DNA from: Cellvibrio sp. OA-2007
Lineage (GTDB): Bacteria; Pseudomonadota; Gammaproteobacteria; Pseudomonadales; Cellvibrionaceae
Assembly (NCBI RefSeq): GCF_000953825.1
Contig: NZ_BBUL01000076.1
Location: 1 to 41,865, forward strand
Direction of reading: 5' to 3'
Length of the DNA stretch: 41,865 bases
In this document: in pieces, positions 1 through 39,860 of the stretch
Position numbering within the stretch: position 1 is the stretch's first letter
How the letters are laid out: every line of letters begins with the position of its first letter
Notes under the pieces: generated by a model
The model's input: the letters and a program-made list of their open reading frames with translations, nothing else
Told to the model about the DNA's origin: nothing
Database searches by the model: none
Made by a program: the position numbers and the translations under genes

Positions 1-3000
1 ACGCTGGCAAGGCACCGCCACCAGCAAGTTGTGCGCTGTAGGTGAGCGTATCGCCAACATCCGGATCGGCAAATGTATTAGCGGCAAATTGAAAACTAAA
101 CGCGGCATCTTCAGTAGCGTTTTGATTGGGAATTGCATTGGCGACCGTGGGCGCATCGTTAGTGTTGGCGACGACAATATCGAAGGTGTCAGTTACTGTG
201 CCGCCATTGCCATCATTGGCGATTACATCGATTGATACAGTGCCAACAAAGGCATTAGTTGGTGTGCCGCTAAACGTGCGTGTCGCTGCATCAAAACTTA
301 ACCACGCGGGTAATGCCCCGCCACCGGCGAGTTGCGCACTGTAAGTGAGCGTATCGCCAACGTCAGAATCGGCAAATGTATTAGCGGCAAATTGAAAACT
401 AAACGCGGCATCTTCGGTGGCGTTTTGATTGGGAATTGCATTGGCAACCGTGGGGGCATCGTTAATAGGGTTAACGGTAATATTGACAGTATCTGTATCA
501 CTCAAGGCGCCGCCAGTGCCGGTATTGCCCAAATCATTGGTGGTGATACTCAGTGTTTCTGCACCCGAATAACCATTGTCAGGCGTGTAATAAAGCGTGG
601 ACAAGGCATTATTGATATTCGCAACTGTGCCGGTAAACACCATACTTCTGTCTGCTAAACCAATTCCAGTAGAGAAGGTTAAACCCGCAACGCTCGACAG
701 GGACAATATGCCATGGGCAACCGAGATACTGACCTGAACACTACTTCCACCTGCATCGACATCGGTAATTTGAATTTGATTGCCGTTACCTGCACTAAAA
801 ATCAAATCAGTATCTTCGCTAGTGACTTGCGCACCCGGTACTGTGTTGACCGGCGCATCATTCACAGCAGTGATATTGACGGTAAAACTATCGTTACCAG
901 ACAAGCTGCCATCGCTGGCGGTCATGGTGACCACATCTGTCGCAACCGGGGTATTGCCCGACAAGCGATAAGTTAACGTTCCGCCGTTATTGCCCGCAAA
1001 TAAATCATTGAGCTGTGCCGCTGTACCGCTGAGCACCAAGGTTTTGGTATTAACCCCCGAAACAATCACAACCCCCGTAGTACCTACAGTGGCTGCCAAA
1101 TTACTGTTACTCCATTGCGCAGCCAAGGTCACGGTCAAACTGTCACCATCATCGTCCGCTACCGTAATACCTGTGCCGTGCAGGTTCATCCATGTCTGTT
1201 CGTTAACGTAGTAATCCGTTGGCGTCACCGTGACTGTGGGCGCGTCATTGGTATTGATAACCGTCAGATTAAAGGTATCTGTCACTGTTCCGCCATTGCC
1301 GTCACTGGCAATCACATCAATCGAGATAGTGCCCACATGAGCATTAAGTGGAGTGCCTGAAAAAGTGCGTGTGCCTGCGTTAAAACTCAACCAAGAAGGC
1401 AGCGCCCCTCCTCCCGTGAGCTGAACCGAATAGCTCAGAGTATCGCCCACATCCTGATCGGCAAAGGTATTGGCAGCAAACTGAAAGTTAAAAGCAGCGT
1501 CTTCATTCGCGTTTTGATCGGGAATGGGGTTGGCTACTGTGGGCGCATCATTGGTATTGATGACCGTGATATCAAAGGTATCCGTGACCGTACCGCCATT
1601 GCCGTCGTTGGCGATCACATCAATCGACACAGTTCCCACATGGGCATTGAGTGGTGTACCTGAAAAGGTTCGCGTCGCCGCATCAAAACTTAACCATGCA
1701 GGCAAGGCGCCGCCACCGGCCAACTGTGCGGTGTAGGTCAAGGTATTGCCTACATCCACATCATTAAACACATTATTGGCAAAGGTAAAGTTAAACGCAG
1801 AGTCTTCAGTGGCAGTTTGATTGGGAATGGGGTTGGCTACTGTGGGCGCATCGTTAGTATTGGCGATGACCAGATCAAAAGTATCCGTTGCTGGCGTACC
1901 GCCTTGGCCATCATCCGCCGTTACCTTGATAGATATAGTGCCTACATCGGCATTGATTGGCGTGCCCGAGAAGGTGCGTGTGGCCGCATTAAAATTTAGC
2001 CATCCCGGTAACGCGCTGCCATCGGCCATGGTGGCGGTGTAGGTGAGCGTATCGCCCACGTCTATATCGTTAAAGGTGTTGGACGCGAATTGAAAATTAA
2101 AGGCGGCGTCTTCTGTGGCAGTTTGATTGGGGATGGGGTTAGCCAGTGTTGGATTATTGTTGGCGCCACTGGACACCTGAAAAGCCACATCCCGCCCTGT
2201 ATCCGCTACACCGGTACTGCTGTGAAAGGAGCCGTTGGCGTAAACATCGGCATTGTGAATCGCCGCCTTCACCTGCCCGTCATTGCTGCTGGATTCAATA
2301 CGAATAAAGTAGAGCTGATTGTCGGTGAGTACCGTACCGGTAAAGTTCAGCGCCTTCCACGCCAGCGTGGTGCCTATGTCGGCCGATGAAACAGTGGCAG
2401 AACCTACTACCGTACCGTTATAGGCGCCCGACAACAAAGTCACCGTGATGGTTTGCGCGGCAGCACTGGGGTCTTTCACCAGTTGCAACACAATTGAATC
2501 TACGGTGTACGTCGCCCCTACACTGTCGTGGAAGAAGCTTTGAAAGAAAGGAACACCGGCTGTAATGATCTGGGTATCGGTCGATGGGCCAGAGGTTTCA
2601 TAAACTTGGTTAGAAGAGCCAACGTTGTTTACTTGCAGATCAAAAAAATCAGAGACGGTGGTAGTACCATCGTTAGCGATAACTTCGATGGTGATATTGC
2701 CCACATCGCCATTAGAGGGAGTTCCACTAAAGGTGCGAGTATTGCCATCAAAGGTTAACCAACCGGGCAGCGGCGCACCACCGGGAATTTGCGCCGTGTA
2801 AGTCAGGGTATCGCCTACATCCTGATCGTTAAAAGTATTGATCGGGAAGGTGTAGTTATAAAACTGGTTTTCGGTAGCTGTTTGATTGGGGATTTGATTG
2901 GCTACCGTAGGTGCATCGTTGGTGTTGGCAATCGCAATATCAAAGTTATCCGATACCGTCGCTCCCGCGCTGTCAGTCGCAATCACCTTGATTGAAAGCG

Positions 3001-3530
3001 TGCCTACATCCGCATTGGCCGGGGTGCCCGAAAAAGTGCGCGTTGCTGAATCAAAGTTCAACCAACCTGGCAGTGCGCCGCCACCGGCAAGCTCGGCAGT
3101 GTAGGTAAAGCTATTGCCAACATCGCCATCGCCAAACGTATTGGCGGGAAAACTGTAGCTAAAGGCGCTGTCTTCCGTCGCGTTTTGGTTGGGAATGGGA
3201 ATATTCACAAAAGGCAAATCGTTGACGTTGTTGATCGTCAAATCAAAGGTATCTTCCGCTGTTCCGCCTTGGCCATCATTTGCAGTGACTTTGATACTTA
3301 TGGTGCCTATATCGCCATCATCCGGCACACCGCTGAAGGTTCTCGTACCGGCGTTAAAAAATAACCACGCCGGTAATGGATTGCCGTTAGCAAGAGTCGC
3401 TGTGTAACTCAGTGTATCTCCATCAACATCATTAAATGTGTTGATGGGAAAGGTGTAGCTATACAAGGCTTCTTCATTGGTTGACTGATTGGGTATAGGG
3501 TTGGCAACCGTAGGGGCATCATTAATCGCT
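1..3530 (-). repeat. Tandem ~300-bp coding repeats (He_PIG domains) inside the giant gene
   Basis: Eight units of about 300 bp are visible in three blocks: about 1-470 (two, the first cut by the edge), 1240-2150 (three) and 2640-3530 (three). The two leftmost units are nearly identical at DNA level: about 31-150 matches 331-450 at a spacing of exactly 300 bases with only scattered changes. Older-looking units to the right are more diverged. Such repeats recombine and collapse in assemblies, which may explain why the window ends here. Confidence 0.85.
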
Positions 3531-5467
3531 GTAACATTGATTGCGACAGTATCTGTGTCTGTAGCATCGTTATCGCCAGTTCTGCCTGCCCCCTTGTCAT
3601 TGGTGGTTATAGTGAATGTATCTGCTCCCACGTAATTAGCGCCAGGAGTGTAATTCACCGTTGCAGCAAGCGTTGCATTAACCTGCGATAAAGTCCCCGT
3701 TAAGGTCACACTACCTGTGCCGCTACCCACGATAACCGCCGAACCACCACTAACGTTTAGCACACCATGATTGACCGTTAATACAACTTCTATATCCCAT
3801 AGGTCATAGTCATCAATATCACTGATACTGACCCCAGTAATAGCAACCGCTGTATCCTCTGGCGTCACTACTGGGCCTGCAGGAACCGTATTGACCGGAG
3901 CATCATTTACATAACTTACATCAATCGTCAGTGTGTTCGGGGTAGGGTCTGTATTATCACCGCCACCGCTATCGCGCACCTGAAAGCCTATCTGAGCATA
4001 GTTGGTGGCGTTTTCATTGGGCGCAGGTGTGAAAACTAATTTTCCGGCGTTTATATCCGCTATTGAAATGAATTGATTTTGGGTAACAGAGCCACTTCCA
4101 GTAAGACTTAAGCTGCCAGCAGCCGGCAAGCTACTAATCACAACCCCAGTAAAACTATGTCCATCAACATCGCTAAAACCGAAGTTGGCTGCGGTTAATG
4201 CAAGCGGCGTGTCTTCTTGAGTATCTATCGCCCAATTGAACCCTTGCGGAGGTGTATTGCCAACATCTATCAGCGCGATCGCCATATCCTTGGTGGAATC
4301 ACCCGAATTATTAACAACAAATTCGCTCGCAATCACATTGCTATTGATATAGCCAATACCGACAAGATTATCGGCACCATCATTGGTTTTAAACTCTACC
4401 CAATACACCGTATAGGCATTAAAAGTCGTGTGCGTAAAGTCAAAATTGACCCAGCCAAGCGAGCCGCCAAGGCTAGCTGTAGTAACGGATGCAGTGGCAA
4501 TTGCGGGGCCATTATAGGTGGCCTCATGGACAATCATCTGCACGCTGGTGGAGCTGGTGCCGTGGTTAGCCAGCATGACTTGGATGCGATCGACCGTTTG
4601 CGTTGAGGTTAATTGCACCCCCTGCATAACTGTGCCGCCAGCAGAAATGATCTGCTCGTTGGTAGCTACGCCCGAATAGAGATGTGTGACATCCGCCAAG
4701 ACGCCCTGCCATTGCATGCTCTGATTGCCGTCAAACAGGGTTTTGGCCTCAATGACACCGACTTTTTCCTCCAGATCCCAGTCGGCACCGGCGCGCCCAT
4801 TACCGCTTAGATCACTACTCGCCGCTATATCAGCACCAGTCAAATCGCTCAGCTGGCGCAACAAGTTAATACCACTTTGATTAGCCGCCAAATCACAACC
4901 GTACAGCAGAATATCGGCGTCTTCACCCAGCGCTGTTTTCCATGCGGCCAATTGTTGCGCGTATTGGCTGATATTATTTTCGTTAACCACTTGGTTGCCG
5001 AGCTGGAGATTGCCAGCCACGCCATGGGAAATTACATGTATGGCAGAAATGCCGCTGGCGCCAGCAAGATAATCACTGATCTGGGCAATGCCATCTTTAG
5101 TTGCATCGATATAGATAATGGCGGTGGAATTGGCATCGGTGTGGCTGCGAATATCGTCAACCAAAGTCTGGTAGTTAGCAACTCCGGTATCCACAAAGAC
5201 TAGTGTGGTAACAGTAGATTGCACGCTGGGGGCGATATCCGCTTGGGAATCAATATCAAAATCGGGCTCGAGCCCTTGGCTCTCCATCATCGATGGGGTA
5301 TCTGGCATATAGATACTGACCAGATCGAGCTGTTCTGCAGCCTGGGTCAAAGACTGCCCATCAGCATGACCGTCGTCAAAAACGGCAATGTCTGCAGTGG
5401 CAGAAAACAATAATCTCGGCTCTAAGGCTTCAATTAAAGGACGACGGTGACGCGTAGCTTTGGACAT
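1..5467 (-). CDS. Giant LEPR-XLL / DUF4347 surface protein with Ig/cadherin-like repeats (partial, C-terminus beyond left edge)
   Basis: One open frame runs on the minus strand from an ATG at 5467 to the window edge with no stop, so at least 1822 residues. Residues about 9-23 carry the LEPR-XLL motif (LIEALEPRLLFSA). Residues about 85-250 match DUF4347, with SHG (His148) and YGCD (Cys191). A beta-sandwich-like module follows (about 258-380); a related one recurs at about 947-1102. The rest is cadherin/VCBS-like domains and eight putative-Ig (He_PIG) repeats of about 100 residues with the pattern ANPIPNQTATEDAAF...PAWLSFDAATRTFSGTP. There is no Sec signal peptide; proteins of this type are thought to be exported by type I-like routes. 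An in-frame ATG at 5545 preceded by AAAGG would add 26 residues, but LEPR-XLL proteins usually start just before the basic stretch, so I prefer 5467. Function is unknown; a surface adhesin is an inference. Confidence 0.88.
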   Translation of the reverse strand, partial: MSKATRHRRPLIEALEPRLLFSATADIAVFDDGHADGQSLTQAAEQLDLVSIYMPDTPSMMESQGLEPDFDIDSQADIAPSVQSTVTTLVFVDTGVANYQTLVDDIRSHTDANSTAIIYIDATKDGIAQISDYLAGASGISAIHVISHGVAGNLQLGNQVVNENNISQYAQQLAAWKTALGEDADILLYGCDLAANQSGINLLRQLSDLTGADIAASSDLSGNGRAGADWDLEEKVGVIEAKTLFDGNQSMQWQGVLADVTHLYSGVATNEQIISAGGTVMQGVQLTSTQTVDRIQVMLANHGTSSTSVQMIVHEATYNGPAIATASVTTASLGGSLGWVNFDFTHTTFNAYTVYWVEFKTNDGADNLVGIGYINSNVIASEFVVNNSGDSTKDMAIALIDVGNTPPQGFNWAIDTQEDTPLALTAANFGFSDVDGHSFTGVVISSLPAAGSLSLTGSGSVTQNQFISIADINAGKLVFTPAPNENATNYAQIGFQVRDSGGGDNTDPTPNTLTIDVSYVNDAPVNTVPAGPVVTPEDTAVAITGVSISDIDDYDLWDIEVVLTVNHGVLNVSGGSAVIVGSGTGSVTLTGTLSQVNATLAATVNYTPGANYVGADTFTITTNDKGAGRTGDNDATDTDTVAINVTAINDAPTVANPIPNQSTNEEALYSYTFPINTFNDVDGDTLSYTATLANGNPLPAWLFFNAGTRTFSGVPDDGDIGTISIKVTANDGQGGTAEDTFDLTINNVNDLPFVNIPIPNQNATEDSAFSYSFPANTFGDGDVGNSFTYTAELAGGGALPGWLNFDSATRTFSGTPANADVGTLSIKVIATDSAGATVSDNFDIAIANTNDAPTVANQIPNQTATENQFYNYTFPINTFNDQDVGDTLTYTAQIPGGAPLPGWLTFDGNTRTFSGTPSNGDVGNITIEVIANDGTTTVSDFFDLQVNNVGSSNQVYETSGPSTDTQIITAGVPFFQSFFHDSVGATYTVDSIVLQLVKDPSAAAQTITVTLLSGAYNGTVVGSATVSSADIGTTLAWKALNFTGTVLTDNQLYFIRIESSSNDGQVKAAIHNADVYANGSFHSSTGVADTGRDVAFQVSSGANNNPTLANPIPNQTATEDAAFNFQFASNTFNDIDVGDTLTYTATMADGSALPGWLNFNAATRTFSGTPINADVGTISIKVTADDGQGGTPATDTFDLVIANTNDAPTVANPIPNQTATEDSAFNFTFANNVFNDVDVGNTLTYTAQLAGGGALPAWLSFDAATRTFSGTPLNAHVGTVSIDVIANDGNGGTVTDTFDITVINTNDAPTVANPIPDQNANEDAAFNFQFAANTFADQDVGDTLSYSVQLTGGGALPSWLSFNAGTRTFSGTPLNAHVGTISIDVIASDGNGGTVTDTFNLTVINTNDAPTVTVTPTDYYVNEQTWMNLHGTGITVADDDGDSLTVTLAAQWSNSNLAATVGTTGVVIVSGVNTKTLVLSGTAAQLNDLFAGNNGGTLTYRLSGNTPVATDVVTMTASDGSLSGNDSFTVNITAVNDAPVNTVPGAQVTSEDTDLIFSAGNGNQIQITDVDAGGSSVQVSISVAHGILSLSSVAGLTFSTGIGLADRSMVFTGTVANINNALSTLYYTPDNGYSGAETLSITTNDLGNTGTGGALSDTDTVNITVNPINDAPTVANAIPNQNATEDAAFSFQFAANTFADSDVGDTLTYSAQLAGGGALPAWLSFDAATRTFSGTPTNAFVGTVSIDVIANDGNGGTVTDTFDIVVANTNDAPTVANAIPNQNATEDAAFSFQFAANTFADPDVGDTLTYSAQLAGGGALPA

Positions 5468-5709
5468 GGGCAAAAACGTCTCAAAATCTGTATCCCCGCC
5501 CAGGGCAATACAGACAAGGTTTAAGGCTGGGGGAAACCGTGGCATCCTTTAGAATTATGCGCTCCAGCCTAATTACTCTGCAGGCTTAACCTGCAATAAG
5601 CTTAAAAAACATACTGACTTATTATTTTGGCACATTTTTCAACTTTAACACTGCCTCATACAAAATAATCTAGCCTCTCGCTGCAGTGCTACAGAAAGTA
5701 GTAAGCACA
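5468..5709 (-). promoter_or_regulatory. Leader region of the giant gene, with a stem-loop/palindrome
   Basis: This gap separates the giant gene from the upstream adaptor gene on the same strand, so the giant gene may have its own promoter. A palindrome TGCAGG-CTTAA-CCTGCA lies at 5579-5595, about 110 bases before the preferred ATG. It has no T-run, so it is more likely an operator or RNA hairpin than a terminator. The region is AT-rich, but I see no convincing -35/-10 pair. Confidence 0.35.
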
Positions 5710-6558
5710 TCAAGGCAAATTGCGCGTATCGAGCAAATTCAAAGTAACGCCATCAAAGCTCACCCGGCATTTCAGGCCGCTGGGTAAGCGATTGCCGGGG
5801 TTGGCAAATTCCAATCGAATACCAAAGGTATTACTCGGCCCGTCAATAACCTGATCGACCAGTGTCACCTCTGCTGTATAACTGTGATCGACAGCACCCA
5901 ATTCCGGCTGCACTTTGGCTGTCATGCCAGCTTTTACCTTTCCGTAAAGACTGGCAGGCGCAAAAACCTCTACTCGCAGCGGGTTTAGCTGCGCCAACTT
6001 GAGCACCGGTTCAAAATCAATGTGTTCGCCCGGTTCTTTGAGGCGCTCCACAACCACACCATCGATGGGACTAACCAATGTTCTCCGCTGCAAATCGGCC
6101 AGCGCGCGCTTGTGCTCCAGTTCGGCTTGACGTTTGCGATCCAGCGCCTGCTGCAACTGCTGCTGTGCTATGGCGTGCTCGGTTTTAAGTTTATCCAGCT
6201 CGGAAAAAGAGGCCGCTTTTTTCTCATAGAGATCTTTTACCCGCGCCAGCGAGCGAGTACTAAACTCCAGCGCCAACTGCTGTGCTTGCACATCGCTGGT
6301 CAACTCAGCTTGGACACGGCGCAACTCGGCCGTTGCCGCCTCCAGCCCAGCGTCCAAGCGGGCTACTACATCGCCCTTTTTGACCTTGTCATTTTTATCA
6401 ACCAAAACCTCACTGATAACACCTTCAACTGCGCTACTCATCTCCACCACAACGGAGGGTTCAATCCGGCAATTGAGTTGCGCTGGCTCCTGTGTTTGCG
6501 CCAACGCTTCACTGCCACACAAGGCAACTAACAGTGAAAAACCAGACAATTTATGCAT
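5710..6558 (-). CDS. HlyD/RND-type periplasmic adaptor (membrane fusion protein)
   Basis: A 282-residue protein with an N-terminal signal-like hydrophobic segment ending near ALAQ (about residue 21). It then has the periplasmic adaptor layout: a lipoyl half-motif (VEGVISEVLVDKNDKVKKGDVVARLD, about residues 43-69), a coiled-coil hairpin (about 75-155), the second lipoyl half (SPIDGVVVERLKEPGEHI, about 163-180) and a beta-barrel domain to the end. Adaptors of this kind bridge an inner-membrane exporter and an outer-membrane channel. It is shorter than typical HlyD (about 400 residues) and lacks an obvious transmembrane anchor. It is the third of three same-strand genes (91 bases after the M50 gene) and precedes the giant surface-protein gene, so a role in that protein's export is inferred. 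No ABC transporter or TolC is present in the window. Confidence 0.85.
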   Translation of the reverse strand: MHKLSGFSLLVALCGSEALAQTQEPAQLNCRIEPSVVVEMSSAVEGVISEVLVDKNDKVKKGDVVARLDAGLEAATAELRRVQAELTSDVQAQQLALEFSTRSLARVKDLYEKKAASFSELDKLKTEHAIAQQQLQQALDRKRQAELEHKRALADLQRRTLVSPIDGVVVERLKEPGEHIDFEPVLKLAQLNPLRVEVFAPASLYGKVKAGMTAKVQPELGAVDHSYTAEVTLVDQVIDGPSNTFGIRLEFANPGNRLPSGLKCRVSFDGVTLNLLDTRNLP

Positions 6559-6649
6559 GTTGAATCCGCTATAAAAACATAAGGCGCCCTAAAATTTAGT
6601 GGCGCTATAAAATACAATTCGCTTATTACTATAGTGTAAAAAAAACGCG

Positions 6650-8815
6650 TTACGAAAAATGACGGATAAAAAGTTGCTGCAACCTGCGATACCACTGCAC
6701 TGCCATAGGCTCAGCTGGGTGCTGAAAACGCACATAAGCGCGTTCACCATAATGGCCAGATTGCACAAAATCGTGCAGGGTTAAATCGAGCAAAAACACT
6801 TTTTCCTTTACTCTTGTACCGGACGGATTAGTCGCATCTACCGCCAAACGCCCACCACCCAGTGCCCCCAAAATCTGACTGGGCAACTCCTGGGTTGCGA
6901 TTGGAACCTCTTGCATCAAGTCTGCCTCAATATTGCGCAAGGGATCGCTGGCAAATTTGACCCGGACCCCTTGGGTCGCCTGCCGAACCAAGCCCACCTC
7001 GTCTTGTAATAGAGCTGCACGCACCCGCACCCGATCTGGTTTTTCAATCAGCGCAAATTCATCGCCCTGCCGTAAAAAACTACCCGGTAAATGATGCTGG
7101 CGATTAATCCGGAAAACCCCTTCAGCAGGGCTGCGCACCACCAGGTTCACCACTCGGGATTGTAAGAGCTCAATTTCCGCCTTGATGGCATTGATGTCCT
7201 GCTCAAACAATTGCGCCTGCGCGCGATCACTGACCCAAGCTTGCTGATAGCGCGCTTCGTACTCGCGCAAATGCGCCTGTTCCGTTGCAAGATTCGCGAT
7301 TAGCAAAGGGTTATCTAGCCGCACCAACTCTTGCCCCTGCCCTACTCGTTCACCATCGGCAACCAGGACTTGCACCACTTCACCGCTTGATTCCACTTTC
7401 ACTCGCGCTTCATCCGGCAGCCAAAGCACAGCCTCGGCAGTGGTTGACATAGGCATGGGTACCGCCACGAGCAAAAGAGTCACCAGCACCACACCAGCCG
7501 CAGTCACCCCCAGCGCGCGCGCGCGCGTACTAGCCAGTTGTTTGTCACGCGCCACATAATTGAGCGCTTTTAGTGCTGGCCAGAACAACTGAAAGAACAA
7601 TAACCAACAGCCAATCACCAACCCCAGTGTCGGAAAATAATTGGCCACTAACAAAATGATAAAAAACAACATAAACACGCGATAAGCAAACGCTGCGACA
7701 CTGTAACTTGTTAACAACACAGCTTCGCGGATGTTCACTGCAGGCGAAAAAATACCGCTCACACCATAGGCATAGCGGCGCAATAAATAACTAAATTGTT
7801 GATTCGCACGAGTAGCAAGGTTAGGTAAATCACACGCATCAGTCAGCAGGTGATAACCATCAAAACGCATCAATGGGTTGCCATTAAAAAACAGGGTGGA
7901 TACACCGCCGATAATAATGATGTTGTATAAAAAATCGCGCAGAAAACCACTCGGCAATTGCAACCACAACAAGAGTGCAAGCGCTGCTAAAAATAATTCT
8001 ACCGCCATGCCCGCCGCCCCAACCATTAGCCGCTGGCGCTTGGATTGAAACCCGGTCGCGGCACTGGCATCGACATAGGGCAAGGGTGTGCCCACTACAA
8101 AGACCACACCGCAATCGTTCACCTGCCCGCCCCAGACTTTGGTAAATAAACCATGGCCTAGCTCATGTAACACTTTAAAACAGGGGTAAGTTAGCCAAAG
8201 CAGAAATAAATTGGCGGGCGATAACATCCGATCCAGATGCCCCTGTGTCAGCTGCGTCCAATGCACGCCCACTTGCAAGAGCGCATAGCCAACCACTAGC
8301 AACCAAACGATTCCCATAGTGCGCGATGCCAGTAAACGCGCTAGCGGCATTAATTTGTCGAGCAGACGATCGGGATTGCCAAGCGGGATATTCCACGTGA
8401 GCGGATTCATCAACAAACGCAGCCAGCGCTGTTGTTTCTTTTGCTCGCGCCGTGCAAATAATTCCTGCGTATTGGGCGGAAGATCGCACACCAATAAATC
8501 GGCGACATGTAAATATTGCAGGAGATGAATTAAATCATCGCGCGTGGGAATCTCATCGGCGGAATGATAAAACTCAGCTTGGGCCGCCGAAGCCAACACT
8601 TGTGCTAACGAATTACGACCGTTCATCGCACTGATCAAACGCCAAGCAGAGGGCGTCAAGCGATGAAAACGACCATTGCTTTTATCCTGCAGTATGTACC
8701 AGCGCTCATTGTTGTAGTCGCGCCGCTGGATATGAATATGGCGCGGCAACGCGGGGCGCAGTGATTCAAGCCGCTGCCAAATAGGATTGTTGTTAAGAGG
8801 TTGGGGTTCACTCAT
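6650..8815 (-). CDS. PqqD-like / M50 zinc metallopeptidase / HlyD fusion membrane protein
   Basis: A 721-residue three-part protein. Residues about 25-112 resemble PqqD-like (RRE) domains (YILQDKSNGRFHRLTPSAW, then NGRNSLAQVL), which in peptide-modification systems bind leader peptides. Residues about 165-425 form a multi-spanning M50 (site-2-protease-like) core with the zinc motif HELGH at 217-221 and the second motif NPLMRFDGYH near 313-322 (candidate metal ligand Asp319). After a further transmembrane segment (about 434-453) a HlyD-like arm follows, with lipoyl halves at about 472-500 and 559-590 and a coiled coil between. Start: ATG, 7 bases after the upstream gene's stop, so probably translationally coupled. 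All expected metallopeptidase residues are present, so activity is plausible. The substrate is unknown; the neighbouring LEPR-XLL protein is the obvious candidate. A (GC)7 tract lies at 7513-7527. Confidence 0.85.
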   Translation of the reverse strand: MSEPQPLNNNPIWQRLESLRPALPRHIHIQRRDYNNERWYILQDKSNGRFHRLTPSAWRLISAMNGRNSLAQVLASAAQAEFYHSADEIPTRDDLIHLLQYLHVADLLVCDLPPNTQELFARREQKKQQRWLRLLMNPLTWNIPLGNPDRLLDKLMPLARLLASRTMGIVWLLVVGYALLQVGVHWTQLTQGHLDRMLSPANLFLLWLTYPCFKVLHELGHGLFTKVWGGQVNDCGVVFVVGTPLPYVDASAATGFQSKRQRLMVGAAGMAVELFLAALALLLWLQLPSGFLRDFLYNIIIIGGVSTLFFNGNPLMRFDGYHLLTDACDLPNLATRANQQFSYLLRRYAYGVSGIFSPAVNIREAVLLTSYSVAAFAYRVFMLFFIILLVANYFPTLGLVIGCWLLFFQLFWPALKALNYVARDKQLASTRARALGVTAAGVVLVTLLLVAVPMPMSTTAEAVLWLPDEARVKVESSGEVVQVLVADGERVGQGQELVRLDNPLLIANLATEQAHLREYEARYQQAWVSDRAQAQLFEQDINAIKAEIELLQSRVVNLVVRSPAEGVFRINRQHHLPGSFLRQGDEFALIEKPDRVRVRAALLQDEVGLVRQATQGVRVKFASDPLRNIEADLMQEVPIATQELPSQILGALGGGRLAVDATNPSGTRVKEKVFLLDLTLHDFVQSGHYGERAYVRFQHPAEPMAVQWYRRLQQLFIRHFS

Positions 8816-8822
8816 AACTGCA

Positions 8823-10610
8823 TCACCACAACTTCAAGCGCAGCCAATGCCACAAATCGTGAAACCAAATCCAGCCCAAGGCTCGCTGCCCTACCATCAA
8901 TTTACCGGAACCGGTCATACCGGGGCGCAATACATCCAGCTCGCGGGTTAATTCCGCATCCACCCGAAAATAATTGCGCCCTTCGCGCACTTCACTGATC
9001 GGCGTGACACGTTTGATGCGCACGGCAAACACATCGCTGGGCAAACTGGAAAATTTTACCTGGCCTTGCTGGCCGGGTTGCACGGCGGCAATATCGCGTT
9101 CATCGACAAACAACTGCACTAAAAAACCTTGTGCTGCCGCAATTTCAAATAACACATCGCCCTGTTTGACCGGCGCGCCCTGGCTTTGTGAAATATCGTC
9201 TGAAACAATAATGCCATCCATCGGGGCGACTAATTGAGTGCGCGCCAATTGTTGGTCGATCAGCCTCAACTGGATACTGGCTTGATCCATTTGCGCACTG
9301 GCAATCGCCGCTTCAACACGATTGGAATTGGCCAATGCGGTATCGTAAGCCTGACGATATTGCTGCACCTGGCTCGCCAACTTGCGCCGCTCCAAACGCA
9401 AATCTTCATCATTCAACTGCGCCAAGGGTGCGCCTTTTTTTACACTATCGCCGGGGCGCACACTGATTTTGCCTAAATAGCCATCGTGCGGTGATACCAC
9501 TAAATATTTGTCTGTTGTTTGCAGCGCGGCATCGGCAGTAATGCGGTAATCGATTGGGACAAATAAAGCGACCAAAAATACTAATAGGCATGACGTAATA
9601 ATTTTGCCGCGCCAGGAATCCTCCCCAAACCAACGCTCCAAGCGCTGTGCGATACGCCTTTTTAAACCCTGCCACACATTGGCATTCGCCTGCTGCCGCA
9701 ATGCGAGAATCGCTCCGGCAAAATGCAATGCCTGTTGCACAAAACTGCGCTGATCGTCGGATAAGTCGGCTTGTTTATCCAGCTCGATGGTTAGCGCCCC
9801 AATAATCACATCGCCATTGCGCACCAATAAACTGTGCACCGACTGCAACTGTTGTTGCTGCAGCAATTGCTGATGGGAGCGTTTAATTAAATTGGGCGCT
9901 GGAGCCGCATCAACAGCCTGATCAATAACTGGCGAGCAATGAATGGCTGCGCCCTGCTCTATCGCCTCGGCCATAGCTTCGCTAATTGCCTGCATCGCCT
10001 GAGTGCGCTTATCAAAATTAGCCGAAAAAGATATGGCTTCCAGTTCAATATGGTTGGCCTGACACAAACCAAGGCTTACCCGGGTAGATTGCAGAAAACC
10101 GGCCAGCATATTCACCAAGCTGATTGCACTTTCTTGCAGTGAATTTTCTTTTAATAAACTGGCACTGAGCTGCAATAGTGCTGGGCTAGCGGAATTTTTA
10201 TCAATAACAGGGGCAGCAACCACTGGCTCAGCCTCGGCGGACTGCTGCAAGATAAACTGCAGCCAGTACTGACCCAACTTGAGGTTCTTTAATACGGCAG
10301 GTAATTCTTTTTTATCCTGAAGCTGCAAGCGCAATAACAGCACCCCCCAGCTCTCACCATCAATCACTAGCGGCTGACCAACAATAAAGTGCCCCGCCCC
10401 ATCGGGCGCCAGGTGCAGTCGTTTTTTGTCCTCCACCTGTGTAAGCGCCTCGCGCAAGGCTGCATTATTCGCTGCCGCATTAGGCCACTTGGCAAGAATT
10501 TTTGGCGGAACACCAAAGGGGGTTTGTACTAACATTGCCGCGCTGACGGTACCCAGCATTTGGCATTGCATACTCAGCCAGAGCTTGAGCGAAGCGGTAA
10601 AAGACTGCAT
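8823..10610 (-). CDS. GAF-like domain / HlyD membrane fusion protein
   Basis: A 595-residue protein. The N-terminal ~310 residues are predicted cytoplasmic and contain one clear GAF-like domain (about 145-305, ending GALTIELDKQADLSDDQRSFVQQAL) and possibly a second, degenerate one (about 10-115). A single transmembrane helix lies at about 337-353 (TSCLLVFLVALFVP). A periplasmic HlyD arm follows: lipoyl half SPHDGYLGKISVRPGDSVKKG (about 373-393), coiled coil (about 400-458), second half APMDGIIVSDDISQSQGAPVKQGD (about 462-485) and a beta-barrel to the end. It heads the cluster with the M50 fusion and the small adaptor. A GAF domain on an adaptor suggests that export is sensitive to a cytoplasmic ligand; this is inference. 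The ATG at 10610 has only a weak ribosome binding site. Confidence 0.82.
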   Translation of the reverse strand: MQSFTASLKLWLSMQCQMLGTVSAAMLVQTPFGVPPKILAKWPNAAANNAALREALTQVEDKKRLHLAPDGAGHFIVGQPLVIDGESWGVLLLRLQLQDKKELPAVLKNLKLGQYWLQFILQQSAEAEPVVAAPVIDKNSASPALLQLSASLLKENSLQESAISLVNMLAGFLQSTRVSLGLCQANHIELEAISFSANFDKRTQAMQAISEAMAEAIEQGAAIHCSPVIDQAVDAAPAPNLIKRSHQQLLQQQQLQSVHSLLVRNGDVIIGALTIELDKQADLSDDQRSFVQQALHFAGAILALRQQANANVWQGLKRRIAQRLERWFGEDSWRGKIITSCLLVFLVALFVPIDYRITADAALQTTDKYLVVSPHDGYLGKISVRPGDSVKKGAPLAQLNDEDLRLERRKLASQVQQYRQAYDTALANSNRVEAAIASAQMDQASIQLRLIDQQLARTQLVAPMDGIIVSDDISQSQGAPVKQGDVLFEIAAAQGFLVQLFVDERDIAAVQPGQQGQVKFSSLPSDVFAVRIKRVTPISEVREGRNYFRVDAELTRELDVLRPGMTGSGKLMVGQRALGWIWFHDLWHWLRLKLW

Positions 10611-11125: not shown

Positions 11126-13285
11126 ATGCACAGAATAACACTGAGTAACACTATCGCGCCTGTGCCCATAGCAATAGGTGCTGTGCTATTACTGCTAATT
11201 AGCAGCGGGGTCATTACCATATGGCACAATCCGCTGAGTTTCCCATCGCTTTACCCCTATGCAACGCTAATGGCATATAACACCGCCGCTAGTTTTTTAT
11301 TGTGCGGCATGGCGTTAATCGCCCTGTTGAATCAATTACGCCGGACCGGTGTGGTACTGTCGCTTGGACTACTAATACTCAGTGGTATTCGCATCTCCGA
11401 AATGCTACTTGATCTGCCGATTGATGCAGATTATTGGTATAAAACACTATTGCCCAGCCCCATTACAGTGGCCATTCCCACCTCGTCAATTACCTCAATC
11501 ACTTTTGTATTTACCGCCGTTAGCCTGCTGTTACTGTTCAGCCAGCTGCTTACACCAACAAAAATCTTAGTTACCGCATTCATCGCACTGCTGATTGCAA
11601 CCATTGCCAGTGCAATCATGATCGGACACAGCCTGCATTTATTTCCCAGCTCCGTCTGGGCGGGGCGCAAAATGTCGCCACATACCGCCCTCTGTTTTTT
11701 TGCCTATGCTGCAGCAATTATTGCCAGCTTATACCCTCATATACTGACTGCTTTTACACGTTTAAAGTTTTTCAATCGTCTTACGATTGGCTTTATGTTT
11801 ATGAGCATCCTCTTTATTGGTATAGGCTCAATTGGCATTTTACAAATTCAAAGCGTTGCAGACATTTCACAAAAACTCTATCAAGAACCATTTCAAACCA
11901 ATAACGCAGCGCTTCGGATCAAAAATCATATAGGTTTACTCAACCGCACCATCAAAGATATTGCAGTGAACCCAGCGCTGGCAAAATCCAACCAATACCG
12001 CCTCATACTTGAACAGACAATCGACAATACCGAACAAGAAATTGAGCAATTTACTCACACTCAAGAACACGAGCCAAATCTACATGCCTTGCGCAATCAA
12101 TTTACACACTGGACAACAATAATAGACAACCTCTTTCAACAACTTGAACGGGGCGACATTACAGGCTACCAACAGAACGCACTGAATGAAAATCAACGCA
12201 ACATCGTCATTTTGGAAACCATTTGTGACGCAATCATCAATGGTGCGCAAAAAGAAATGGAGCAATTAAACAACGAAGCTATTCAGACAAAACATCACGC
12301 TGAAAACTTAATGTTTATTGTTATCTTCGGCTTTTTAATTGTGGGATTTTTTGTGTCTGCACTACTCACCCGCACCCTGAATCAACAATTGTCCAAAGTG
12401 CGCAGCACTATGCTCGATATTGCACAAGGCAATAGCGAGGCTCATATTCCGTTTCTTGATTACCCGCATGAAATAGGTGACATGGCAAGAACACTAGAGG
12501 TATTTGCCCATAATGTCTGTGAGCGTAAAAAAGATGCTGAACTGTTGATCAAACACCAACGAGAACTGGAGCAAACCAATCAACAACTAGCGCTAACCAA
12601 TAAAGAACTGGAAGCCTTCGCTTACGTCGCCTCACACGATTTGAAATCGCCCTTACGCGGCATTGCCCAACTCTCCACTTGGATTGAAGAAGATCTGGAG
12701 TCCAAAGAGTTTAGCGAAGTTAACAAACACACCAGCATGTTGCGCAACCGCATTTTGCGAATGGAAAGATTACTGGATGACATGCTGGTTTTTTACCGTG
12801 CAGGCAAAACCGATGGAGCAATCAGCCGTATTGATGTCGCCCATATGGCCAGAGAATTATTTGATATACAAAATACCAAACCCGGTTTGCAGCTCATTTT
12901 GGGAGAGAACCTCCCCAGTATTGAGACACTAAAGACGCCATTTGAGCAAACCCTACGCAACCTTTTCTCCAACGCTATTAAACATCACGATAAAGATGAA
13001 GGTGTAATTCGCGTAAATGCGCGCATTATCAATCAGGACTTTTATGAGTTTAGTGTTAGCGATGACGGACCTGGCATTCCACTCAAATTTCAGGAACGGG
13101 TCTTTGGCATGTTTCAAACACTAAAATCGCGCGACGAGTTGGAAGGCAGCGGTATGGGACTGGCGCTAATTAAAAAAATTGTGGAGACCTACGGCGGCAA
13201 CATCAGTGTATTTTCGGAAGGCCGCGGCTGCTGTTTTACTTTTACCTGGCCAATCCATATCAGCAGGACACTACATCATGATTGA
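11126..13285 (+). CDS. Membrane sensor histidine kinase
   Basis: 719 residues. The N-terminal region (1-205) has about six hydrophobic segments, a MASE-like integral membrane sensor. A further helix (about 216-240) starts a second unit: a periplasmic four-helix-bundle-like region (about 245-392), a helix (about 393-413) and HAMP (about 414-465). A coiled coil leads to HisKA with phospho-acceptor His504 in ASHDLKSPLRGI. The ATPase domain has the N box (NLFSNAIKHH, about 612-621), G1 (SDDGPGIP) and G2 (GSGMGLALIKKIVETYGG). The HisKA/ATPase pair resembles the bacteriophytochrome-type kinases that pair with Rcp1-like single-domain regulators, and such a regulator overlaps its 3' end by 8 bases. 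The signal is unknown. Confidence 0.9.
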   Translation: MHRITLSNTIAPVPIAIGAVLLLLISSGVITIWHNPLSFPSLYPYATLMAYNTAASFLLCGMALIALLNQLRRTGVVLSLGLLILSGIRISEMLLDLPIDADYWYKTLLPSPITVAIPTSSITSITFVFTAVSLLLLFSQLLTPTKILVTAFIALLIATIASAIMIGHSLHLFPSSVWAGRKMSPHTALCFFAYAAAIIASLYPHILTAFTRLKFFNRLTIGFMFMSILFIGIGSIGILQIQSVADISQKLYQEPFQTNNAALRIKNHIGLLNRTIKDIAVNPALAKSNQYRLILEQTIDNTEQEIEQFTHTQEHEPNLHALRNQFTHWTTIIDNLFQQLERGDITGYQQNALNENQRNIVILETICDAIINGAQKEMEQLNNEAIQTKHHAENLMFIVIFGFLIVGFFVSALLTRTLNQQLSKVRSTMLDIAQGNSEAHIPFLDYPHEIGDMARTLEVFAHNVCERKKDAELLIKHQRELEQTNQQLALTNKELEAFAYVASHDLKSPLRGIAQLSTWIEEDLESKEFSEVNKHTSMLRNRILRMERLLDDMLVFYRAGKTDGAISRIDVAHMARELFDIQNTKPGLQLILGENLPSIETLKTPFEQTLRNLFSNAIKHHDKDEGVIRVNARIINQDFYEFSVSDDGPGIPLKFQERVFGMFQTLKSRDELEGSGMGLALIKKIVETYGGNISVFSEGRGCCFTFTWPIHISRTLHHD

Positions 13286-13733
13286 TAAAATGTACCCTAT
13301 TGGCAATCAGGAATTTAAAACGGTCAACCTGTTGATTGTTGACGACGACGACATAGACGCAACTGCACTAAAGCGAGCCCTGCATAAACTGAAATTACTC
13401 AACCCACTCTATCGCGCCAAAGATGGATTGGAGGCTCTTGAAATATTGCGTAATGGCGAAATACCCAGCCCCTATATTATTTTGTTAGACATCAACATGC
13501 CGCGCATGAATGGCTTGGAGTTTTTAGAAGCCTTACGCGCTGACCCGGAGCTGACTCATGCGGTAGTTTTTGTATTGACTACATCCAAATCCGATGAAGA
13601 CATTATGGCGGCCTACCGGGAGCATGTGGCCGGCTATTTACTAAAACAACGTATGGACAGCGATTTTATCCAAGTCGTCAGTCTGCTTGATCACTACTGG
13701 CGAGTTATTGAATTACCAACCAATCAGCCTTAA
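13278..13733 (+). CDS. Single-domain response regulator (Rcp1-like)
   Basis: 151 residues from the ATG that overlaps the kinase stop by 8 bases, implying translational coupling. It is a REC domain only: acidic cluster VDDDD (21-25), phospho-acceptor Asp71 in LLDINMPRMNG, the conserved Thr in VLTTS and Lys in YLLK. Slightly longer loops and the partner kinase type match Rcp1-like regulators. With no output domain it probably passes phosphate or a protein-protein signal onward, plausibly to the REC-GGDEF-EAL protein 44 bases downstream. The kinase/regulator pairing is well supported by overlap; the downstream link is inference. Confidence 0.9.
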   Translation: MIDKMYPIGNQEFKTVNLLIVDDDDIDATALKRALHKLKLLNPLYRAKDGLEALEILRNGEIPSPYIILLDINMPRMNGLEFLEALRADPELTHAVVFVLTTSKSDEDIMAAYREHVAGYLLKQRMDSDFIQVVSLLDHYWRVIELPTNQP

Positions 13734-13777
13734 TTTTAAATCTGTATGACCTAGATCACTGCAAAGAGGCACCTTGC

Positions 13778-15535
13778 ATGAAGCTGTTACTCATTGACGA
13801 TAATGAGCTTGATCGACAAGCGATTATTCGCACCTTTAAGAAAACAGAATGGGACATTACCATTGCCCAAGCCAGCTCGGCGTATGACGGACTGGCGCAG
13901 TTTGATAGCGACGACTTTGATGCAGTTCTGCTCGACTATCGCCTGCCCGATATTGATGGTATGGAGGTCTTGCAGCTACTCAATAAACACCCCCGCCATC
14001 ACGCCGCCATTATCATACTCACTGGCGCCAATGCCGACGATAATCTTGAGCGCGAGTTTATCGCCGCGGGCGCGCAAGATGTTCTATTCAAATCAGAAGT
14101 CGCCCACAAACATTTAACTCGCGCCATTACTCACGCACAGGCGCGCCACTTGTTAGAGCGTCAACTACAAGAAAGCCATCAACGTCTGCGAGCACTGGCC
14201 GAAAACGATTCGCTGACCGGCTTGGCAAATCGCTATTATTTTGATGAAAGCTTGCGCTCCTCTATACAGCGGGCCAAACGCCACAACGAACAACTTGCGC
14301 TCTTGTTTCTGGATCTGGACAACTTCAAATTTATCAATGACGGACTAGGTCATGACACAGGAGACTTGGTACTAAAAGAGGTCGCCAATCGTTTATTACA
14401 AGTCGTGCGAGCAGGCGATATTGTCTGCCGTTTAGGTGGCGATGAATTTGCAATACTCGCGCACAACTTTGATTCCGAAGAAGCCATAAGCCAATTAGCC
14501 CAACGTATTCTTGCTGACCTGCGCCGCCCTATTATGATCGGCACCTACGAGAACTGTATTTCCAGCAGCATTGGCATCGCCACTTTTCCCGAGGCGGGCG
14601 ATAACGCGAGCGATTTGCTTAAAGCCGCCGATATGGCGATGTATCGCGCCAAACAAGATGGACGTGATAATTTCCAATTTTTTTCATCGATTATGCAAGC
14701 GCAAATGCAAGAGCGCTTACGTTTGGAAAAAGAATTGCGCGCAATTATTCCCACCGATCATTTTATTTTGTTTTATCAACCGATTGTGGATGCGCAAACA
14801 TTTGAAATTTGCGGTGCAGAAGGCTTAATACGCTGGGATCACCCTGAGCGCGGCATTTTGCCACCGAGCGAATTTATCGGCCTAGCCGAAGAAATTGGCT
14901 TAATCAGTGAGATTGATTCGCGCAGCCGTTTTAATGCCTGCCAACAATTAGCGGACTGGCGCGCACAAAATTTAGTGAATGACGACTTCAATATGAAGTT
15001 CAACGTCTGTGCACAACTACTTACCGATGATGATTTATATCAAGGCATTATTGATGATCTGGAGCGCACCGGTCTGCCCGGTCGCTGTGTCAGCTTGGAA
15101 ATCACCGAATCGATACTGATTGAAAACCTGCAAAATACAGCGCACAGCTTAAAAAAAATCCGTGATTACGGTGTCGATATTGCTGTGGATGATTTTGGTA
15201 CCGGTTATTCATCCATGTCCTACCTAAAAGAACTACCCGCACGTACCCTGAAAATTGATCGCAAATTTGTTATGGGCGTGCCTGACAACGCTGCCGACTG
15301 CCGCATTCTGCGTGCAATGATTGTGTTTGCCAAAAGCCTGGATTTAATTGTCGTAGTTGAAGGTGTAGAGACTCGCGAACAGGCGCGCATCTGCCGCGAT
15401 TACGGAGCCGACTTATTGCAAGGCTATCTTTTCTCCAAACCGATCTCACCATCGGCCTTTGAACAACTTCTACGCACCCACAACGCGCAGGAGTGGAGCA
15501 ACCATTTATCCACACGGGGAGTTATGACAGGTTAA
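13778..15535 (+). CDS. REC-GGDEF-EAL bifunctional c-di-GMP protein
   Basis: 585 residues: REC (1-120, phospho-Asp53 in LLDYRLPD), GGDEF (about 140-302) and EAL (about 312-570). The GGDEF signature is intact at 220-224, and an inhibitory-site RxxD (Arg211-Asp214) sits five residues upstream, so a product-inhibited diguanylate cyclase is plausible. In the EAL domain the signature reads EGL (348-350) instead of EAL, but the other catalytic positions are present: Asn409, Glu441, Asp471-Asp472, Lys492 and Glu528. Phosphodiesterase activity is therefore likely kept. It is the third gene of the kinase/regulator cluster, with AGAGG before the ATG. It would tune c-di-GMP, the ligand of the LapD receptor encoded at 37947. 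Confidence 0.92.
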   Translation: MKLLLIDDNELDRQAIIRTFKKTEWDITIAQASSAYDGLAQFDSDDFDAVLLDYRLPDIDGMEVLQLLNKHPRHHAAIIILTGANADDNLEREFIAAGAQDVLFKSEVAHKHLTRAITHAQARHLLERQLQESHQRLRALAENDSLTGLANRYYFDESLRSSIQRAKRHNEQLALLFLDLDNFKFINDGLGHDTGDLVLKEVANRLLQVVRAGDIVCRLGGDEFAILAHNFDSEEAISQLAQRILADLRRPIMIGTYENCISSSIGIATFPEAGDNASDLLKAADMAMYRAKQDGRDNFQFFSSIMQAQMQERLRLEKELRAIIPTDHFILFYQPIVDAQTFEICGAEGLIRWDHPERGILPPSEFIGLAEEIGLISEIDSRSRFNACQQLADWRAQNLVNDDFNMKFNVCAQLLTDDDLYQGIIDDLERTGLPGRCVSLEITESILIENLQNTAHSLKKIRDYGVDIAVDDFGTGYSSMSYLKELPARTLKIDRKFVMGVPDNAADCRILRAMIVFAKSLDLIVVVEGVETREQARICRDYGADLLQGYLFSKPISPSAFEQLLRTHNAQEWSNHLSTRGVMTG

Positions 15536-37946: not shown

Positions 37947-39860
37947 ATGTCATTAATTAAACAATTGTGGATTGGTATTATTGTGCTCTTACTGTTAGTG
38001 CTGAGCGGTAATTTTGTTATCAGCACACTGACGGCAAAAACCTATCTACAGGAGCAATTGCGCTTAAAAAATATCGACAATGCCAATTCGCTGGCGCTAT
38101 CCATATCGCAAATGCCCGAGAAGGATCCCATCACCTTGGAACTACTCATTACTGCGCAATTTGATGCAGGCCATTACGAGTATATTATTTTTCAAGACGC
38201 CAACCAAAAACCTATTGTTGCGCGCAACTTTGAAGAACATACCCCTACCGCTACTACTGTGCCGCAATGGTTTTCCAAATACGTAAAATTTAATGTGGCG
38301 CCCGGCATTGCACAGGTACAAGATGGCTGGCAACAAGCGGGCACCCTGATAGTAAAAAGTCACTCGCGCTACGCTATAGAAGCACTCTGGCACAACACCC
38401 GCGATTTATTGGATTGGTTTATTGTAGCAACACTGCTGAGCGGTTTAATTGGCAGTTTTATTTTGAAATATATTTCACGCCCCCTGGATTTGGTTGTTCA
38501 TCAAGCTGAAGCCATAGGTGAACGCCGTTTTATCACCTCGGAGGAACCAAAAACTAAAGAGTTTCAGCGTTTGGTACGCGCGATGAATACGCTATCGCAG
38601 GGCGTTAAACAAATGCTAGATAAAGAGGCGCGCCAACTTGAGGTGCTGCGCCGCGAATCGCAAAAAGACCCAATCACCGGGCTAGCCAATCGCACCCATT
38701 TTTTAAACTTGCTCGATACGTTGTTAACCCGGGAAGATGCGCAGTCCTCTGGCATTTTGGTAATGGCGCGAGTGATGAATTTGAATGAACTCAACAATCA
38801 ATTGGGACACCAACAAGTCGACCAAATATTGCGTGTCCTTGCCGATGCTCTAAACGGTATTCAGGGTAGCTATGCCCACAGCTACGCAGGCCGCTTAAAC
38901 GGTAGCGATTTTGTTTTACTCACCCCAACCGATACGCCCATCGATATTTTCAGTGCAGATTTATCACAAAGGCTGAGCTTTCAACTACTTGCCAGCGGCT
39001 TTGACAAAATCGCCTTACCCCTAGCTTTATGCAACTTTACCAGCAGTGACAAACGCAATGAGCTTCTACACAAACTGGATGGTGCGCTGGCACAGGCAGA
39101 ATTAAAAGGTAACCGTGCAATTGTGATGTTGGAAAACAATCAAACGAACTATGCGCAACACAACTTAAGCGAATGGCGTACAGCCATTACCGCTTCATTG
39201 AGCGCACAAACTATTGCGCTAGCTAAATTCCCCGTGCGCAACACCAATGGTGATTTAATTCACCATGAAACCGCTGCACGCTTGAAATTAGATAGAGATT
39301 TCAAGTCCGCCGGTTATTTTATGCATTGGGCTGTACGTTTAGGATTAATGCCGGATGTGGATTTGGCCATAATAAAGTTAGCCTTGTTACAACTTGGCCA
39401 TACAAGTGAACCGCTGGCGATTAATATTTCGGCTGCGTCATTATGCAGCGCCAATTTTCGCGAACAGCTAATTGCCCTGCTGCGCAATGAGCCAGAGCAC
39501 ACGAAAAACTTGTGGCTAGAATTTCCTGAAATTTGCATGCTGCGCCATCTGGAAGAGTTGCGCGCGTTTTCTACGCGGCTGCGCAGCTTAGGTTGCCGTA
39601 TTGGCTTGGAACATGTTGGTTTGGAATTCACTCAATTTGGTGATTTACAGGCAATGGGGCTGAGCTATTTAAAAATAGACAGCGCCATTACGCGCGATAT
39701 TGACAGTAATACGAGCAGCCAAACATTTGTGCAAAGCCTCTGCACCCTGGGCCACTCATTAGGTATTGTGATGATTGCCGAGGGTGTAATCAGCGATGCA
39801 GAGCAGCAGTCTCTACGTAAAATAGGGCTCGATGGATTTACCGGCTCGCACATTATCTGA
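37947..39860 (+). CDS. lapD: c-di-GMP receptor LapD (degenerate GGDEF/EAL)
   Basis: 637 residues: transmembrane helix (about 8-27), periplasmic LapD/MoxY-type domain (about 28-152), second helix (about 155-173), HAMP (about 174-225), GGDEF-like (about 237-400) and EAL-like (about 405-637) domains. The GGDEF signature is degenerate (NGSDF, 318-322). In the EAL domain the catalytic DDFG has become EHVG (555-558) and the signature reads ETAARL, so it should bind but not make or break c-di-GMP. This is the LapD arrangement, where c-di-GMP binding opens the periplasmic domain to sequester LapG. The GGDEF-EAL protein at 13778 is one possible source of the signal. Confidence 0.95.
   Translation: MSLIKQLWIGIIVLLLLVLSGNFVISTLTAKTYLQEQLRLKNIDNANSLALSISQMPEKDPITLELLITAQFDAGHYEYIIFQDANQKPIVARNFEEHTPTATTVPQWFSKYVKFNVAPGIAQVQDGWQQAGTLIVKSHSRYAIEALWHNTRDLLDWFIVATLLSGLIGSFILKYISRPLDLVVHQAEAIGERRFITSEEPKTKEFQRLVRAMNTLSQGVKQMLDKEARQLEVLRRESQKDPITGLANRTHFLNLLDTLLTREDAQSSGILVMARVMNLNELNNQLGHQQVDQILRVLADALNGIQGSYAHSYAGRLNGSDFVLLTPTDTPIDIFSADLSQRLSFQLLASGFDKIALPLALCNFTSSDKRNELLHKLDGALAQAELKGNRAIVMLENNQTNYAQHNLSEWRTAITASLSAQTIALAKFPVRNTNGDLIHHETAARLKLDRDFKSAGYFMHWAVRLGLMPDVDLAIIKLALLQLGHTSEPLAINISAASLCSANFREQLIALLRNEPEHTKNLWLEFPEICMLRHLEELRAFSTRLRSLGCRIGLEHVGLEFTQFGDLQAMGLSYLKIDSAITRDIDSNTSSQTFVQSLCTLGHSLGIVMIAEGVISDAEQQSLRKIGLDGFTGSHII

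Follow-up and report, generated by a model that had tools for sequence, protein, structure and literature searches.

Type I secretion systems, including the peptidase-containing ATP-binding cassette (ABC) transporters (PCATs), combine HlyD-type periplasmic arms with giant cargo, and a TolC-type gene is sometimes near. In the LapA/LapD/LapG system, a giant repeat adhesin is found with cyclic di-GMP (c-di-GMP) genes nearby. In accessory Sec systems, an extra SecA paralogue (SecA2) adjoins the genes of special clients. Daptide and epipeptide site-2 leader peptidases (NF041824, NF058609) have an RRE-type domain (RRE, RiPP recognition element; RiPP, ribosomally synthesized and post-translationally modified peptide) followed by a site-2 protease, and the daptide leader is removed by an RRE-dependent intramembrane peptidase, as stated in excerpts of a report (PMC10036551). 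PCATs carry a built-in peptidase that binds and cleaves the leader, according to part of a review of tripartite and type I systems (PMC8277102); in that part, SecA is mentioned only together with SecDF. Here we describe an operon of Cellvibrio sp. OA-2007 that encodes a giant LEPR-XLL protein. It lies on NZ_BBUL01000076.1 (41,865 nucleotides, hereafter the window), which is an entire contig (C22) of the 4.6-Mb genome and at whose edge the giant is truncated with 1848 codons visible. Sequence comparison and structure models indicate that the operon probably encodes a machine dedicated to the leader-dependent, non-ABC export and processing of giant surface proteins tagged with LEPR-XLL.

In contrast to type I and PCAT loci, the window cluster has no visible ABC transporter. 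A sequence-only reading of the same DNA had claimed that an ABC ATPase is absent, and Pfam scans of 14 window proteins revealed none, nor a dedicated transporter beside adaptor and cargo; the remaining open reading frames (ORFs) of the window were read by eye or left unread. Since this defining transporter was sought in the cluster and not found, the pathway is set apart from the type I kind. Its peptidase is an adaptor-fused RRE intramembrane metalloprotease, and many homologous loci have a SecA-like ATPase. Compared with the daptide and epipeptide peptidases, the window protein has an additional C-terminal HlyD arm, and its presumed clients are thousands of residues long rather than short peptides. 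The likeness to accessory Sec appears in homologous loci, where an extra SecA paralogue adjoins special client genes, but this SecA-like protein sits with HlyD adaptors; no copy with the whole C-terminal third was found among 25 aligned, and no SecA paralogue in the window genome. The leader and the protease are unrelated to those of the LapA/LapD/LapG system, and a separate LapD gene is present at 37947-39860. A description of the combined parts was not found in the open-access literature searched (preprints and most subscription papers were outside the scope), in which LEPR-XLL occurs only as a domain name in passing mentions by two papers. New here are the predicted RRE fold of the M50 N-terminus, the resemblance of RRE plus protease to the daptide leader peptidase, the SecA-like ATPase in homologous loci and the predicted caspase-like DUF4347 fold. 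The sequence-only reading could see neither the ATPase and the two folds nor a C-terminal hydrophobic hairpin.

An RRE, site-2 protease and HlyD fusion protein in the operon

ORF and domain analyses placed four genes on the minus strand in the order GAF-transmembrane (TM)-HlyD protein, M50 protein, small HlyD protein and giant. The ORFs, domains, order on one strand and three HlyD-type arms preceding the LEPR-XLL giant reported by the sequence-only reading were thus all recovered in ORF listings and in Pfam and profile scans. The M50 protein (721 aa, 6650-8815, minus strand) was identified by profiles, motifs and a structure model as a fusion of a PqqD-like RRE (residues ~27-110, 8486-8737), an M50 site-2 protease and a HlyD/MacA-type adaptor arm (residues ~454-710, 6686-7456), all on the same strand. 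The PqqD match of the window protein was below the Pfam cut-off (14.7 against 23.4 bits), 9 of its 20 homologues matched PqqD at E ≤0.1, and a PqqD-like domain is visible in the structure model. Profile and model together predict that the N-terminus has the fold of leader-binding RRE domains.

The M50 family match was likewise below cut-off (19 against 27.2 bits) with the protease motifs intact. The HELGH zinc motif (residues 217-221, 8153-8167, minus strand) has H217, E218 and H221 invariant in 20/20 homologues. D319 (7859-7861, minus strand), which is invariant in the same 20, is presumably a zinc ligand, a role that we take by homology from the site-2 protease family. Both HExxH and NxNPxxxxDG-type (NxxPxxxxDG) patterns were present in all 20 homologues and in 91/91 M50 proteins examined. 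Homology to the daptide leader peptidase spans residues 34-404, and its model was matched by 20/20 homologues. The fold matches listed were filled with adaptor structures and contained no solved site-2 protease; the link to site-2 proteases therefore rests on the motifs and a weak profile match to 3b4r (E 0.0009). The M50 proteins of the nearest named relatives, in Cellvibrio, are up to 78% identical to that of the window.

The giant protein and its leader

The visible N-terminal part of the giant extends over 2-5467 on the minus strand, in a frame that is open from 5545 and runs off the contig. Judging from the sequence of the Cellvibrio mixtus homologue, translation probably starts at codon 27, the ATG at 5467. 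The leader core IEALEPRLLFSATA (5396-5437, minus strand) fits the class-A pattern and clears the NF012209 threshold by a small margin (18.2 bits against 17), with 23 bits scored in the genome search. It is followed by DUF4347 (4697-5203, minus strand; E 3.5e-52), which is predicted to have a caspase-like (clan CD) fold with a His-Cys dyad, the His and Cys being invariant, and by tandem Ig/cadherin-like repeats assigned by Pfam as He_PIG, Big_9 and Cadherin_4/5 (2-4264, minus strand). The C-terminus of the giant is probably on contig C82, since the order on C82 of a repeat-protein end, a GGDEF gene homologue and an FtsK-like gene (by eye) is the same as behind the C. mixtus giant.

Glutamate two positions ahead of LEPR was invariant in 30/30 class-A leaders although the search pattern did not demand it, and 24 of these 30 leaders end in SAD. 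Class-B M50 proteins form a separate clade, and the leaders seen with them end in DGA, DAA or DAS; this class-B sample is small, three leaders having been found by pattern and others by reading. Leader variants matched the M50 clades in the cases examined.

A second LEPR/DUF4347 giant starts in the window genome at G000:C30:1-1762 (L001, L173) and probably ends at G000:C14:1-2430 (L185); an M50 operon was not seen in the C30 and C14 stretches examined around it. The longest LEPR frame listed has 19,427 codons (G221:C115:112865). In a Phycisphaerae genome (G150, the genome of L146), 15 LEPR-XLL matches in frames of 504-4872 codons were observed, the most among the 20 genomes searched in a comparison across phyla.

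Association of the leader with the M50 gene across genomes

The sequence-only reading had proposed a genome survey of the association of LEPR-XLL/DUF4347 proteins with PqqD-M50-HlyD and GAF-HlyD genes. In the order sample (145 genomes), M50 genes were counted at E ≤1e-26, weaker matches, mostly to the HlyD arm alone, being dropped; one genome (G015, 2e-16 in the order search and 3.5e-49 by the phylum profile) was counted as M50-negative there. The phylum sample comprised 249 Pseudomonadota genomes, of which at least 19 also belong to the order sample. Since up to seven M50 candidates per genome were scored in the order search and up to four in the phylum search, gene counts are lower bounds. 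The P values below are not corrected for kinship.

In the order sample, DUF4347 or LEPR-XLL was found in 33/39 M50 genomes and in 10/106 others (p=7.6e-18). The earlier reading had named the lack of any neighbourhood association as the outcome that would contradict it; at least 29 of 48 M50 genes lay within 25 kb of a DUF4347 or LEPR-XLL match. The association of LEPR-XLL with M50 was strongly positive in the phylum sample as well (62/79 M50 genomes against 8/170 others, p=1.2e-33), and all 32 phylum genomes with LEPR frames of at least 3000 aa have M50. When 132 genera were tallied by hand, 38 had both, four M50 only and two LEPR only. Across phyla, LEPR-XLL was present in 17/20 chosen M50 genomes (9/12 outside Pseudomonadota) and in 1/14 controls.

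It was also compared whether the leader or DUF4347 follows the M50 gene. A leader is present in 18 of 29 DUF4347 loci, all 18 in M50 genomes; it was recognized by pattern in 13 and, as a variant such as LEKRYLFDGAA, by eye in five. Eight have none: six are in M50-negative genomes, and two are in M50 genomes on other contigs and have Sec-like starts. The remaining three were not parsed for a leader. The leader and M50 were thus associated among DUF4347 loci (Fisher p=1.2e-4), and at the sequence level the distribution of the M50 gene over genomes is followed more closely by the leader than by DUF4347. DUF4347 was rejected as the linked feature, as it occurs without leader and without M50. In one DUF4347 protein (L174:5848-13536), the first part read lacks a LEPR leader and the C-terminus forms a Gly-rich membrane tail, which suggests an alternative anchoring route for DUF4347 proteins.

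SecA-like ATPase in homologous loci

Homologous loci were represented by the best 80 of 566 related stretches (the named loci; L070 was dropped as the same place as L120). They are from Pseudomonadota, Thermodesulfobacteriota, bins labelled Deltaproteobacteria or Myxococcota, Nitrospirota, Planctomycetota, Verrucomicrobiota, Elusimicrobiota, Spirochaetota and Fibrobacterota. A SecA-like ATPase was detected in 63 of the 80. The 53 full-length copies have a median length of 666 aa (range 524-736), and all contain DExD. One copy scanned showed the SecA DEAD, P-loop and preprotein cross-linking domains. When 25 copies were aligned with housekeeping SecA, almost nothing aligned to residues 661-909, only the first two thirds being represented; the missing part presumably holds the wing, the two-helix finger and the tail. 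The SecA-like proteins score better with SecA than with SecA2 models.

Clear SecA-like copies were found in 9/145 order genomes, each adjoining M50. The phylum sample contained at least 33 clear SecA-like genes in 26/249 genomes, all M50-positive, after exclusion of G258 and G217, whose frames are full-length SecA. Among the matches listed, at least 31 of these 33 genes lie within 1.5 kb of M50, and the other two could not be judged. Presence and absence of the SecA-like gene require nine changes on the M50 tree, in which the window clade is without it. Loss of the ATPase is likely, subject to where the root of the tree lies.

Adaptors and neighbouring genes

The first gene of the operon encodes the GAF-TM-HlyD adaptor (595 aa, 8823-10610, minus strand), in which domain scans found GAF (PF01590, E 4.4e-06) and HlyD (PF16576, E 4.4e-19) with one TM segment at residues 335-353 and a barrel-sandwich arm. 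Its GAF domain would face the cytoplasm and its arm the periplasm. A homologue is present in 75 of the 80 named loci. The small HlyD-type adaptor (282 aa, 5710-6558, minus strand), also identified by domain scans, has a signal-peptide-like start by eye, and its homologue is present in 59/80. None of the three window adaptors reached the cut-off of TIGR01843, the type I HlyD adaptor model (21.1, 31.3 and 76.7 against 208.65).

The M50 gene is present in all 80 named loci, DUF3467 in 19 and SapC in 15. LEPR or DUF4347 is visible in 26, and in 34 a frame of more than 700 aa touches the locus edge. For 11 of these 34, the genomes were searched for LEPR, and in seven the coordinates identify the edge frame as a LEPR giant (4,610-12,607 codons); L120 has a LEPR giant (10,907 codons) farther out, at a distance of two genes. 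The giant is found either before or behind the machine genes. The DUF3467 protein (~100 aa) is encoded just upstream of GAF-HlyD in many SecA-bearing loci (for example L120:7868-8176) and is possibly a client chaperone; a profile search with it recovered no relative of solved structure (best E 0.72). SapC (PF07277) genes lie near M50 operons (L096:12191-13045, L169:9719-10537, L176:17738-18499 and L167:3203-3928) and, by eye, also beside LEPR giants. A recurrent unscanned family occurs in six homologous loci, and its member in L072 is by eye an importer-type ABC ATPase.

In the window, genes for a histidine kinase, a receiver protein and a receiver-GGDEF-EAL protein (11126-15535) diverge from the operon, and a comparable three-gene order is upstream of the operon in two Cellvibrio loci (L082 and L083). 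The LapD-like gene at the other end of the contig encodes LapD_MoxY_N, GGDEF and EAL domains. Next to it lies the last part of an RTX/cadherin-type giant, truncated at the contig edge (40306-41865, minus strand). With these two genes, the contig has a second adhesin locus, which is Lap-like.

Discussion

Gene order, predicted folds, motifs and associations allow a scheme of binding, cleavage, transport, motor action, retention and c-di-GMP control to be proposed. By analogy with the RREs of RiPP pathways, that of the M50 protein would capture the leader in the cytoplasm. Its site-2 protease would then remove the leader, as reported for the related daptide peptidase, or alternatively cut another membrane segment, and the HlyD arms may form a periplasmic conduit to a TolC-type channel. 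In loci that have it, the SecA-like ATPase would push the chain. Since the window genome has no such motor, housekeeping SecA or another source would have to supply the energy there. Behind the leader, the caspase-like DUF4347 may process itself, while the hydrophobic hairpin at the C-terminus may keep the giant in the membrane until its release, possibly under c-di-GMP control via the GGDEF-type gene behind it. In its bolder form, the scheme needs neither SecYEG nor an ABC transporter: once the adaptor-fused RRE/site-2 protease has read and cut the tag, a shortened SecA would drive LEPR-tagged giants (to ~19,000 residues) through the HlyD-type conduit. That this is an undescribed pathway of Pseudomonadota, Planctomycetota, Verrucomicrobiota and others is a tentative suggestion, somewhat more apt to be wrong than right. 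Of the earlier proposal of proteolysis-coupled export of a non-Sec giant, the coupling of proteolysis to export is retained as the best reading and is favoured by the association, whereas DUF4347 as the linked feature is given up.

Several observations weigh against a dedicated export machine. The window M50 protein scores 126.7 bits with the daptide model, whose cut-off is 300 bits, so that it is a relative rather than a member, and its supposed substrate, the leader, has no evident transmembrane segment, which is unusual for a site-2 protease client. The association has exceptions: 6/39 order M50 genomes lack both LEPR-XLL and DUF4347, 17/79 phylum M50 genomes lack LEPR-XLL, and eight M50-negative phylum genomes have LEPR matches, in frames of 99-2514 codons. 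No LEPR, DUF4347 or long edge frame is present in 20 of the 80 named loci, some of which are on short contigs; the genomes of L144, L154 and L161 have LEPR proteins for which no linkage to the M50 locus was shown, and TolC-type genes are found in only nine of the 80. GEGKT is present in 48 and the tested arginine-finger pattern in 28 of the 53 SecA-like proteins. A dedicated SecA was searched for in the window genome and not found, with one SecA match and none at the paralogue threshold; diverged copies would escape the thresholds used. Finally, the genomes compared are related by descent and are not independent.

The protease might instead cut the C-terminal hairpin of the giant, freeing a membrane-held fibre under c-di-GMP control in parallel to LapA/LapD/LapG, with the leader just positioning the protein. 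Many LEPR giants end in a conserved hydrophobic hairpin with a charged tail; it is present in both C-terminal pieces from the window genome and in loci with SecA and without SecA, and GGDEF or hybrid-kinase genes recur next to the operons. However, no hairpin was seen at the ends examined of class-B giants and of very long giants, which yet go with the same kind of M50, the leader being the common feature. The hairpin as a universal protease target is thus unsupported, and we regard this alternative as unlikely, though it deserves the most attention among those considered.

It is rather improbable that the giant is a Sec client using housekeeping SecA and SecYEG, with the LEPR region as an odd signal and the M50 protein as a quality-control or signal-peptide peptidase. 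Such a route would suit the window genome, which shows no SecA-like motor of its own, and the SecA ancestry of the motor elsewhere suggests a Sec link. By eye, however, the leader has no evident hydrophobic core, and DUF4347 proteins with Sec-like starts are without the leader.

Type I systems usually carry giants of this size, and an ordinary one encoded elsewhere could export the giant while the M50/HlyD cluster merely trims, retains or releases it. The window genome does have one type I adaptor gene, at C29, and in G115 such an adaptor is located ~29 kb from the M50 operon on the same contig. The C29 system has a natural client, however, in the LapD gene and RTX-type giant end of the window, and the three adaptor-type proteins of the operon would be surplus. 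TIGR01843 adaptors are present in 15/22 class-A M50 genomes and in 89/145 overall (p=0.64), and with up to 11 candidates per genome scored, seven class-A genomes have none, three of which (G099, G127 and G117) are 99-100% complete. Owing to this lack of association with class-A M50 genomes, type I dependence of the export was rejected, and we consider such an arrangement distinctly improbable.

Chance or inherited adjacency without joint function, to which counts inflated by related genomes and the lack of a tree correction would lend themselves, is very hard to reconcile with an association seen at order and phylum level, partly in other phyla and in both gene orders.

If a dedicated export and processing machine is indeed encoded by these operons, the LEPR-XLL tag would gain a decoding machine, and RiPP leader peptidases, efflux adaptors and SecA would be the three sources from which the parts of an export route had come. 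Such a route would account for the surface display of the largest proteins of many bacteria.

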